From: Acidobacteriota bacterium
GTDB lineage: Bacteria > Acidobacteriota > Vicinamibacteria > Fen-336
Assembly: GCA_016199625.1 (NCBI GenBank)
Contig: JACQGI010000009.1
Location: 1 to 36,033 of the forward strand
DNA: 36,033 bases
Direction of reading: 5' to 3'
Within the stretch, counting starts at the first letter, position 1, and each line of letters begins with the position of its first letter. A model generated the notes under the pieces. It was not told where the DNA came from. It saw nothing but the letters and a program-made list of their open reading frames with translations, and searched no databases. This document shows, piece by piece, positions 4,601 to 23,487 of the stretch. Made by a program: the position numbers and the translations under genes.

Positions 4601-6460
4601 TCAGGGAGCCGTCGCCGCCAGAAGCTCGGCGACGGCGAGGCGCAACGCGGTGAGCTCCACCCGGGCGGGGTAGTGGTCCGTGGCTCGCTCCATCTCCGGC
4701 ACGCGCAGCTCCCACGTGAAGGCCGGCACGGCGCGATAGCGCGGCGACGCGAAGGGCGAAGCGTAGCCCGGGAAGCCCGCCGAGTAGACCCGATATCCGT
4801 CGGCGCGCCAGCGGTCGACCTGGTCCCAGAGCGCCTCCGGCGGGCTCCCCCCCTGCAACACGAGCGCCTCGACGCCGTGCCGGAGGCGCAGGGGCAGCGC
4901 CACCGCGTACACGGCTGGCTTCGGCCAGAGCAGGACGACCGAGCGTGGGCCCAGCCGCGCGGCGAGGTCGGCGACCTGCGCCCCGGCTCCCGCGTACTCC
5001 GCGTGGTCGAGGAGGGGCTGGCTCGCCCGGCCCGCGTGGAGGGCCGCGGCGCCGGCGAGCAGGATCGGCGCGACGTCGCGGGCGACGGGCCAGGGCTGCC
5101 TCGCGAGGACGGCGAGTGCCTGCGCCGCGAGCAGGAGCAGGGTCGGAAGGGCGAGGGGGAGCCACCGCCGGATCGCCCAGTGGTAGTCAGGGGAGACCGC
5201 GGGCTCGACGACGAGTTGCGCCACGGCCGGCAGGCCGAGCGCCAGCCAGGGCCAGAGGCGCGGCAAGGGGCCCGCTGCGGCGACCCGGATGGCGCCGGCT
5301 GCGGCGAGGCCCAGCATCCACGGCGCCACGTACCAGCTCAGGGCCACGAGGGTGGGCCAGCGCGCGAGCAGCGCGGCGGCGACGCCCAGGGCGAGCATCG
5401 CCGCCAGCGCACGGCGCAGCGGGCCCTCGTGCGCCGCGAGCCACGGGCGGAGGCGGAGGGCTACCGGCATCGCGAGGAGAGCGAGGGGAGCCACGAGCGC
5501 CGCCGTGCGTGCGGGCGGCGTGTGGGCGAAGACGAACCGCAGGTACGTAGCGCCGGTCGTCGTCACGTAGACGACGGCCTGGAGCAGGAGCGGGACCTGG
5601 AGGGCGAGGAGGGGCCATGCGGGCCTGCCGCGCCAGCGGGCGGCCACGACCGAGACCGCGAGGAAGAGCGGCGCCGCGAGGAGCAGCTCGGCCCGCGTGA
5701 GCGCCGCGAGGCCCCAGCAGGTCCCCGCGAGCAGTCCCAGGCGCCGGTCGGCACCGTCGAGGTATCGGGCCGCAGCCGCGAGCCCTCCCCACAGCCAGCA
5801 CTGCGCGGCCGCCTCCGCCATCGGGTAGCGGGCGAACCACAGCTCGGCGGGGCAGAGCGCCAGCAAGGCCGCGGCCAGGAGGCCCGCGCCGCGGCCGACG
5901 AGCGTGCGGCCGGCGGCCCACACGCCCAGGCAGCCCATCACGGCGTAGACGGCCGGGACGCGGAGCGCTCCCGCCGTTCCCGCGAGCGCGTGCCCCAGGC
6001 CCAGGCTCACCGCGTGGAGCGGCAGGAAGATGGGGCCGGCGAGGCCGAGCGCGGGATCGAGGTAGGGGACGCCCCGGAAGCGCTGGAGCGGGTCGGTGGC
6101 GCGGAGCTGCTCGAAGAAGACGGGCCACAGGTCGGACGGGATCGCGGCGCCGAACGCGTCGGTCCAGACGAGCCCGCCGGTCTGCTCGACGACGAGGCCG
6201 AAGGCGACGTAGTAGCCGGGATCCCGGTGGCCCAGGACCCACTCGAATGGGTGGACGAACGTGGGCGCCAGGATCCCGAGGATCAGGAGCGCTCCCGCGT
6301 CCCAGGCGCTCGCGCCGCGCCTGCGTACGAGCCCGCCCGGCGCCGCCGCGCAGGCGAGGGCCGCGCCGCCCAGCGCCACCGTGATCCGGGCGGAGAAAGC
6401 GCCGGCCTGAGCCAGCGCCGTGGCCACCCCTGCCAGGGCGGCGAGGCACGCGAGGGCCAC
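4601..6460 (-). CDS. GT-C-like multi-pass membrane glycosyltransferase homologue
   Basis: A 619-residue polytopic membrane protein with about 12 hydrophobic segments. The first loop has HRDPGYYVAFGLVVEQTGG and later ARYPMAEAAAQCWLWGGLAAAARYLDG, typical of the dolichyl-phosphate-mannose-protein mannosyltransferase-like (PMT/ArnT-related) GT-C fold, where an Asp or Glu in the first loop is catalytic. It would use a polyprenyl-phosphate sugar donor at the outer membrane face; specificity is unknown. The GTG at 6458-6460 begins within the first hydrophobic segment, and the frame stays open upstream with a plausible cytoplasmic stretch (LARRSRPRREPPPP...) but no ATG, GTG or TTG, so a CTG start upstream is possible. 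It faces a second GT-C-like gene tail to tail with six bases between stops. Confidence 0.78.
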   Translation of the reverse strand: MALACLAALAGVATALAQAGAFSARITVALGGAALACAAAPGGLVRRRGASAWDAGALLILGILAPTFVHPFEWVLGHRDPGYYVAFGLVVEQTGGLVWTDAFGAAIPSDLWPVFFEQLRATDPLQRFRGVPYLDPALGLAGPIFLPLHAVSLGLGHALAGTAGALRVPAVYAVMGCLGVWAAGRTLVGRGAGLLAAALLALCPAELWFARYPMAEAAAQCWLWGGLAAAARYLDGADRRLGLLAGTCWGLAALTRAELLLAAPLFLAVSVVAARWRGRPAWPLLALQVPLLLQAVVYVTTTGATYLRFVFAHTPPARTAALVAPLALLAMPVALRLRPWLAAHEGPLRRALAAMLALGVAAALLARWPTLVALSWYVAPWMLGLAAAGAIRVAAAGPLPRLWPWLALGLPAVAQLVVEPAVSPDYHWAIRRWLPLALPTLLLLAAQALAVLARQPWPVARDVAPILLAGAAALHAGRASQPLLDHAEYAGAGAQVADLAARLGPRSVVLLWPKPAVYAVALPLRLRHGVEALVLQGGSPPEALWDQVDRWRADGYRVYSAGFPGYASPFASPRYRAVPAFTWELRVPEMERATDHYPARVELTALRLAVAELLAATAP

Positions 6461-20574: not shown

Positions 20575-21157
20575 ATGGAGAGGGACAGCGCTGCGGTGCT
20601 TCTCGCGCGAGCCCGTGAGGGCTCGCCCGAGGCCCTGGGGGAGCTGCTCTCGCGCTGTGGGGAGAGGCTGCTGGCCCTCATCCGCCTGCGGCTCGGGCCC
20701 ACGCTCAGGGCGCAACTGGAGTCGCGCGACATCCTCCAGGCCTCCCTGGTCAAGGCGATCGAGGGCTTCGACACCTTCGCCGGCGCCGAACGGGCGTCCT
20801 TGATGGCTTGGCTCGCCCGCATCGCGGAGAACGAGATCCGCGACCGTGCGGACTTCCATCGCCGCCAGCGACGCGACGCCGCGCGGGATGTGCCCCTCGA
20901 GGAGGCGGGCGGGGCCTGGGAGCTGGCGGCCGGAGTGCGCTCGCAGACGAGTCGCATAGCCCTCGGCGAGCGCATGGTGTGCCTCGAGCGGGCCATCGAG
21001 GGGCTGAGGTCCGAGCACCGCGAGGCGATCGTCCTGCGCCGCCTCGAGGAGCTTCGGAGAGATGGCTTCCCGGATGGGCCGAAGCCCGGACGCCTGCCGG
21101 ATGCTGTTCGCGCGGGCGATGACGGCCCTGACGCTGGCCATGGGGGAGAAGGGATGA
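20575..21157 (+). pseudogene. ECF-like RNA polymerase sigma factor, frameshifted before region 4 helix-turn-helix
   Basis: From ATG 20575, 158 codons encode a sigma-70 region 2 and linker (LLARAREGSPEALGELL, LESRDILQASLVKAIEGFDTF, LARIAENEIRDRADFHRRQRR) and the start of region 4 (RSEHREAIVLRRLEEL). At 21049-21052 the frame is lost; the rest of region 4.2 is read one frame over from 21050: SFGEMASRMGRSPDACRMLF, ending at TGA 21155-21157. That tail is the DNA-binding helix-turn-helix. A normal LEELSFGEM-like junction would need five more bases, as if one copy of a tandem gagct were lost. The unshifted frame instead runs on into the kinase. The true stop overlaps the kinase ATG (ATGA), the normal arrangement of sigma/kinase pairs. 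Mutation, assembly error or programmed shift are all possible. Confidence 0.75.
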
Positions 21158-23487
21158 GCGGCGAGCTGGAGGCGCTGCTCGCGAAGTACGTCGAGGCCCA
21201 CGTGACGCGTGGCGAGCGGCTCGACCCGGGCGAGATGTGCGCGGACCACCCGGAGCTGCTCGCCTCCCTGCGGGTCCTCGTCGACCGGTACGAGTCTCTG
21301 GACGGATCCCTGGCTTCCTCGGGCGACCCCCCCAGGCAAGAGTCGCCCGGGGCGCCGGCGCCCCTCCCGTCGTTCCCCGGGTTCCGCACCCTCGAGCGGC
21401 TGGGCCGAGGTGGGGGGGGAGAGGTCTACAAGCTCCAGGACGTCACACTGGGCCGCGTCGTGGCGGCCAAGGTCCTGCGGCGGGACAGCCCCCTCGCGGC
21501 GAGCGTCGGCGATTTCCTGCGGGAGGCGCGCTCCCTGGCGCTCTTCGAGGACCCGCGTATCGTGCGGATCCTGGAGTATCGTCCAGCCGATCCCCCCGTG
21601 CTGTTCATGGAGTTCGTCGACGGCTTCGGCGTCGACGAGATCGGCCCCTCCCTCGAGTACACGCAGCGCGCGCGGATCGTGGCCGAGGTGGCCGAGGCCC
21701 TCGAGGGTGCCCATCGTCTGGGCATGCAGCACCGGGACTTGAAGCCGAGCCACATCCTCGTCGATGCCCGCCTGCAGCCGAAGATCCTCGACTTCGGCCT
21801 CTCGCGGGGAGAGCCGGACCGCGGCCACGGCGTCGGCACGCTCGCTTACATGGCCCCCGAGCAGCTCGACGCGGGCCGGCTCATCGACGGCCGCAGCGAC
21901 GTCTACGCTCTGGGGGTGGTCTTCTACGAGCTGCTGTGTGGCGTCCGTCCGTACGCGGGCGACGGCGACGAGGATCTGATCGCGGCGATCCGTGCGGGCG
22001 AGCCTCGACTCCCGGCCGAGGTCGAGAACGGCGTCCCCGAGCCGCTCCAGGCGGTCGCCCTCAAGGCGATGGCGCTCGAACCGACCGACCGCTACGCCTC
22101 GGCGCAGGAGATGGCACTGGACCTCCGACGCTACCTTGCCGGCCGCCCGGTCCTGGCGCGGCCCGCGACCTACCGTGCGGCGCTCGCCCGGCGCGTGGGT
22201 CCCCACGTCGAGCAGATCGGCGACTGGGAGCGTCTGCGGCTGATCTATCCCCACGAGGGCGAGCGCCTGCGGGCCGCCTACAGCCAGCTGGAGGCCCGCG
22301 ACGAGGACTGGATCGTCAGCAGCCGCGTGCTCTCCTTCGCGCAGATCTCGCTCTACCTCGGCGCGTTCCTCCTGGCATGCGGCAGCCTGCTCTACTTCGG
22401 CGTCTACCTCAACGACGCGGTGAAGGGGATCGGGCGTCCCACCCTCACGCTGCTCCTGCCCTTCGTCGGCCTGAGCGTCCTGGCTCAGCGGCTCTATTGC
22501 CGGGAGCACCGGGCCGTGGCCGTGGCCTTCCACCTCAGCGCCACGGCGCTGCTGCCGCTCGCGCTCCTGATCCTGTTCCGAGAGGCGGGCCTGTTCATGG
22601 GCGGCGCGACCGGCGAGGGCGCTCTCTTCGAGAAGGTGACGAACCGGCAGCTCCAGATCGCCTTGCTGCTGGCCACGGCGTGGCTCGCGTGGCTGGCGGC
22701 TCGGACCCGCACGGTCGCGCTGGCGAGCGGCTTTGGAGGGGCCTTCCTCGGGGCACACCTGGCTCTTCTGGGCGACTTCGGCCTGCGGCGCTGGGTCGAT
22801 GAGGGCCGCTGGGACCTCGTGGCCGTGGGGCTCGTGCCCCTGCTCGCCGTGGCAGCGGGCCTGGGCCGGGGCCTCGAGTGGCGCGGCTGGGCCTGGTTCG
22901 CGCAGCCGCTCTATTTCGGGAGCGCGGCGCTCTGTGTCGCGATCCTCGAGCTGTTCGCCCTCGAGGGGCGCGCCTTCGCCCACCTCGGGGTGACCCTGAA
23001 GCCACTCCAGGACGGCACCGTCGGCGACCCGCTGCTCCTCGACACCGTGGCGGCCATGACGCTCAACGGCATCTTCATCTACGTCTTGGCGACGCTCCTC
23101 GAACACCGGGGCACGGCCCTCATGCGTACCCCGGCGCGGCTGCTGCACGCCGCCGCCCCCTTCGCTACGCTGGAGCCCCTGGCGTACCTGGCAGGGACCG
23201 GAGAGTACACGCACCGCTTCGACTGGCTCTACCTGGCCCTCGCACTCGGAATCGCCTTCATGAGCCGCTTCCGCCAACGGCGCAGCTTCTACTATGCCGG
23301 CGTGCTCAACACCGGTCTCGCGCTGCTGCTGATCACCGATCACTACCAGTGGTATGACCGGCCTGGCTGGGCCGTCGCGGTCCTGGCGGCCGGTGCCCTC
23401 GCCCTGGGCTCCGGCCTGGGCCTCGACGTCCACGACCGCCAGCGCCGCATCGTCCGGCAAGGGGGACCGTCCACTCCGCTGCGTTGA
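21154..23487 (+). CDS. Membrane serine/threonine protein kinase with polytopic C-terminal domain
   Basis: A 777-residue kinase. Residues 1-60 are a helical N-terminal segment (MSGELEALLAKYVEAHVTRG) typical of kinases coupled to sigma factors. The kinase domain (about 75-345) has the glycine loop GRGGGGEVYK, ATP Lys106, catalytic HRDLKPSH (His193, Asp195, Lys197), DFG at 213-215 and MAPEQL. The Asn normally found in HRDLKPxN is His200, an unusual change at a metal-ligand position. Residues about 400-777 hold some 10 to 12 hydrophobic segments (LSFAQISLYLGAFLLACGSLLYFG onward, in part) resembling DUF2157-like membrane domains. It probably senses a membrane or envelope signal and controls the adjacent sigma factor or the FHA regulator (inference). 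A GGGGGAGAAGGG ribosome site precedes the ATG. Confidence 0.9.
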   Translation: MSGELEALLAKYVEAHVTRGERLDPGEMCADHPELLASLRVLVDRYESLDGSLASSGDPPRQESPGAPAPLPSFPGFRTLERLGRGGGGEVYKLQDVTLGRVVAAKVLRRDSPLAASVGDFLREARSLALFEDPRIVRILEYRPADPPVLFMEFVDGFGVDEIGPSLEYTQRARIVAEVAEALEGAHRLGMQHRDLKPSHILVDARLQPKILDFGLSRGEPDRGHGVGTLAYMAPEQLDAGRLIDGRSDVYALGVVFYELLCGVRPYAGDGDEDLIAAIRAGEPRLPAEVENGVPEPLQAVALKAMALEPTDRYASAQEMALDLRRYLAGRPVLARPATYRAALARRVGPHVEQIGDWERLRLIYPHEGERLRAAYSQLEARDEDWIVSSRVLSFAQISLYLGAFLLACGSLLYFGVYLNDAVKGIGRPTLTLLLPFVGLSVLAQRLYCREHRAVAVAFHLSATALLPLALLILFREAGLFMGGATGEGALFEKVTNRQLQIALLLATAWLAWLAARTRTVALASGFGGAFLGAHLALLGDFGLRRWVDEGRWDLVAVGLVPLLAVAAGLGRGLEWRGWAWFAQPLYFGSAALCVAILELFALEGRAFAHLGVTLKPLQDGTVGDPLLLDTVAAMTLNGIFIYVLATLLEHRGTALMRTPARLLHAAAPFATLEPLAYLAGTGEYTHRFDWLYLALALGIAFMSRFRQRRSFYYAGVLNTGLALLLITDHYQWYDRPGWAVAVLAAGALALGSGLGLDVHDRQRRIVRQGGPSTPLR

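Follow-up and report, generated by a model that had tools for sequence, protein, structure and literature searches.

The window (the whole 36,033-nucleotide stretch analysed here) is contig 44 of a 1.37-Mb draft assembly (44 contigs, 63% complete), and the GC content of the genome is 71% in the 350 kb sampled. On its forward strand lies what is most likely a conventional two-gene unit, consisting of an ECF-type sigma factor gene and the gene for a membrane-anchored Hanks-type Ser/Thr kinase. Specifically, the frame starting at position 20575 encodes sigma region 2 (PF04542, E 1.8e-5, 24.9 bits against a Pfam cut-off of 24), a linker and the first helix of region 4, and this original-frame part (20575-21052) is 50-56% identical to its orthologs. 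At the frame-break site (21049-21056) the window is 5 nt short relative to all orthologs, and from there the helix-turn-helix FGEMASRMGRSPDACRMLFARAMTALTLAMGEKG is read in the +1 frame (21053-21154; 21053-21157 with its stop codon). The TGA of this tail (21155-21157) overlaps the ATG of the kinase gene (21154-21156) as ATGA, and the heptamer GGGGGAG (21142-21148), 5 nt upstream of that ATG, is a putative Shine-Dalgarno sequence. The kinase (21154-23487) matches Pkinase with an E value of 1.3e-35, has several hydrophobic helices after the catalytic domain and is 47-59% identical to its full-length orthologs.

That the sigma gene loses its frame at the start of the helix-turn-helix, and that the frame of the latter ends at a TGA overlapping the kinase start, had been stated in the original prediction and is borne out here. 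A stretch of 350 kb from this genome served to train a codon-usage model, which placed the frame switch at 21053/21054 without being given any hint; its score over 33 codons was +8.5 nats for the tail frame and -7.6 nats for the fused frame. The isolated tail matches the Sigma70_r4_2 family weakly (PF08281, E 0.035) and shares 59-71% of its residues with the ortholog tails to which it was compared, the highest value being that for the ortholog referred to as L044. Region 4 is thus not in one frame with region 2 in the window, as it is in the intact orthologs tested, and the frame shift is real in the sequence as given. Since the tail is free of stop codons past the break, retains its codon bias and is 71% identical to that of L044, the break is either recent or artificial.

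Orthologs were searched for in genome contigs and in sets of 60, 193 and 396 whole genomes, which gave 14 distinct orthologous sigma genes, mostly from Acidobacteriota MAGs (the named relatives of the locus are for the most part Acidobacteria MAGs as well). Relative to L044, the twelve other unbroken sigma orthologs are 47-72% identical and a further one, L034, is 82% identical. The same membrane kinase is encoded downstream wherever the DNA extends far enough, with the exception of L035, where the sole kinase match in the available DNA lies approximately 3.4 kb further on. All 14 orthologs cross the break site in a single frame, as do six more distant sigma-kinase pairs, and the spacing from the conserved EE residues to the aromatic residue of the region-4 turn is constant in the 14. 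In the DNA alignment, which includes 11 other sequences, only the window shows a gap at this site, of exactly 5 columns, and L044 carries an exact GAGCTGAGCT tandem at the homologous place, which makes the loss of one tandem copy a plausible origin of the 5-nt gap, as had been proposed. No short direct repeats were found at the present break site in the window. The relatives hence have a sigma gene that is intact at this site and the change in the window is an isolated one, the outcome that had been named as refuting the original reading. A null mutation or an assembly error, both of which it had listed as alternatives, are supported.

We therefore favour, with a probability of roughly 0.9, a singleton frame lesion in a conventional sigma-kinase pair, in which either 5 nt were deleted recently or the assembly or consensus is wrong. 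The missing 5 nt fall in the turn that precedes the helix-turn-helix and are best explained either by slippage within a tandem pair of GAGCT copies or by a mistake in assembly or consensus calling; for a true loss, we infer slippage as the cause. If the lesion is real, the sigma protein would lack the helices that bind the -35 element and would be expected to be null, the kinase would probably still start at its own ATG, and the two would be joined in phase as an incidental consequence of the ATGA overlap. In the case of an error, the pair in the organism would be an ordinary intact one.

Between these two forms of the lesion the evidence is divided, and the weights that we give to deletion and error are subjective. 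To a true mutation of recent origin in the population sampled, in which slippage removed one tandem GAGCT unit to leave a null sigma allele and an intact kinase, we give about an even chance. It draws support from the GAGCTGAGCT tandem that L044 has at the corresponding site, and also from the size of the loss, because a 5-nt loss outside a homopolymer is not a typical sequencing error. Moreover, a codon scan of 350 kb of the genome, which is insensitive to shifts near gene ends, showed other frame breaks to be few and less clear than this one, so that a gross assembly error rate is unlikely. On the other hand, the undecayed tail means that such a deletion must be very recent, the genome is an incomplete draft in 44 contigs, and homology-validated singleton frameshifts are expected to be mostly sequencing errors (PMC3711429). 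The possibility that the sigma gene of the organism is intact and that the contig is 5 nt short through an assembly or consensus error, to which we assign somewhat less than an even chance, accords with the metagenome-type draft assembly and with the intact, codon-like tail; assembly is known to create false pseudogenes, and many apparent pseudogenes in assemblies are such errors (PMC11017572). Against it, the shortfall exactly equals a biologically plausible loss of a tandem unit, and frame breaks are few in the other genes of the window and in 20 other stretches. The scarcity of frame breaks mildly favours a real deletion, and the draft origin mildly favours an error. In the GeneTack study of prokaryotic frame transitions, homology-validated but non-conserved shifts were attributed to sequencing errors or recent indels (PMC3711429); the transition in the window is likewise homology-validated and unconserved in relatives, as are the singleton frameshifted genes of that study, and differs from them in that it also brings reading into phase with an overlapping gene downstream (PMC3711429).

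This last property is what had suggested a sigma-kinase fusion. The frame from 20575 is indeed, as originally noted, without a stop until 23485-23487 and runs for 970 codons through the whole kinase. Where relatives share the ATGA overlap, their kinase is in the +2 frame relative to the sigma gene, and it is into this frame that a net loss of five bases brings the reading. That frame is stop-free from the break site to the sigma stop in 13 of the 14 orthologs, so that any indel shifting into it would yield a "fusion", and even the opposite strand of the same region has an open frame of 985 codons. The 970-residue product thus follows from the overlap geometry and the GC content, and the open fusion frame is no more than chance. 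A natural fusion was also considered for L078, which has a 1148-codon frame, but there the frame extends upstream and the sigma gene ends before the kinase. We consider it very unlikely that a real deletion has been co-opted, giving a 970-residue protein in which a sigma region 2 that lacks recognition of the -35 element is anchored to the membrane kinase: the long open frame is what speaks for it, whereas the fused segment has a codon usage like that of non-coding sequence (the -7.6 nats above), an open frame is the rule at this place given base composition and overlap geometry, and none of the orthologs is fused. Slighter still is the chance that the 5-nt-short allele is fixed in the lineage and expressed as the 970-residue fusion, where it would act as an RNA-polymerase-tethering or dominant-negative regulator and not as a promoter-specific sigma factor. 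The claim of a meaningful fusion is therefore not upheld. A more general caution concerns GC-rich genomes: where two genes overlap by ATGA, many of the indels that shift the frame close to the 3' end of the upstream gene will mimic an in-phase fusion to the second.

A programmed +1 ribosomal frameshift at GAGGAG CTT CGG, which would yield a full sigma factor and, alternatively, a kinase fusion lacking the helix-turn-helix, had been proposed as well. In favour of this, the +1 frame does hold an intact tail, and the Shine-Dalgarno-like GAGGAG stands immediately 5' of the CTT codon. Nevertheless, none of the 14 orthologs has a break at the site and their sequences there differ, and the zero-frame CGG is not a stop codon, nor is it expected to be rare at 71% GC. 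In addition, region 4 of the +1 product would be two residues short at a turn that has a fixed length in all orthologs; either product that could arise stays just below the Pfam region-4 cut-off of 25.7 bits (25.0 and 24.5 bits), and the intact orthologs score 34-51 bits. Because the site is not conserved, the relatives are free of the break and the product is two residues short, we regard programmed shifting as highly improbable. In a literature search on programmed frameshifting of ECF sigma factors, a single paper contained both terms, a Vibrio fischeri resequencing study. Taken together, the earlier interpretation is supported in part, and the lesion looks ordinary rather than like a new kind of fusion or a programmed frameshift.

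A phase-variation switch by recurrent breakage was also considered and rejected: only L034 among the orthologs has an otherwise damaged sigma gene, with the damage elsewhere in the gene, and a phase-variable tract would typically comprise more than two 5-nt units. In L034 (positions 1060-1097, VEPF01000286.1), from a Gemmatimonadetes MAG, the sigma factor is damaged inside the recognition helix and ends in KPCS followed by a stop; the gene is approximately 30 nt shorter than that of L044 and the kinase behind it is intact. This is a second, independent region-4 lesion among the sigma orthologs. In L039 (positions 6060-6160, MEKT01000191.1) it is the kinase ortholog that shifts frame, at approximately residue 507-512 in the hydrophobic C-terminal membrane part. 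Damage to the sigma-kinase pair accordingly occurs elsewhere in MAGs. As to a paralogue that might compensate for the loss, the other sigma matches in the 63%-complete genome are distant ECFs (best E 1.6e-9), its other kinases share the catalytic domain only, and a second copy of the pair was not detected in the part of the genome represented in the assembly.

For the intact unit, the simplest model is probably that the membrane kinase senses a signal and controls the sigma factor by modifying it, possibly through phosphorylation. The window and the known STPK-associated ECFs (ECF43 with EcfP/PknT of Vibrio parahaemolyticus, EcfK/PknS of Xanthomonas citri, and ECF59) have in common an ECF sigma gene adjoining the gene for a Hanks-type Ser/Thr kinase, and sigma factors of this kind, such as EcfP and EcfK, are activated when the neighbouring kinase phosphorylates them in region 2.2 or the linker (PMC8999054, PMC13147305, PMC8103513). 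Unlike these, the sigma gene of the window is frame-broken. Its region-2.2 motif is ESRD (20719-20730), as it is in almost every ortholog; one has DSRD, and the serine is invariant. The motif aligns with EAQD of SigH in PDB entry 6in7, i.e. with the DAED position. The serine, lying in an RNA-polymerase contact motif, is a candidate phosphosite for the neighbouring kinase. The motif retains two acidic residues, in contrast to STTA in EcfP, and as the Glu and Asp are kept a strict dependence on phosphorylation is uncertain.

Among NCBIfam subfamilies, TIGR02984 (Sig-70_plancto1) is the best match for the sigma part of the window as well as for the intact orthologs, with 83.8 and 109-124 bits, respectively, all well below its curated cut-off of 183.75. 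As a by-product, the analysis brings out a patchily distributed pair of ECF sigma factor and membrane Ser/Thr kinase, mostly in Acidobacteriota, in which the serine of the RNA-polymerase contact motif is invariant. It resembles the sigma factors that are activated by phosphorylation and falls outside the nearest NCBIfam subfamily model. In the window's family, none of the 13 other genomes searched has the pair, which does occur in other families of the same class and phylum, a distribution that perhaps reflects horizontal transfer.
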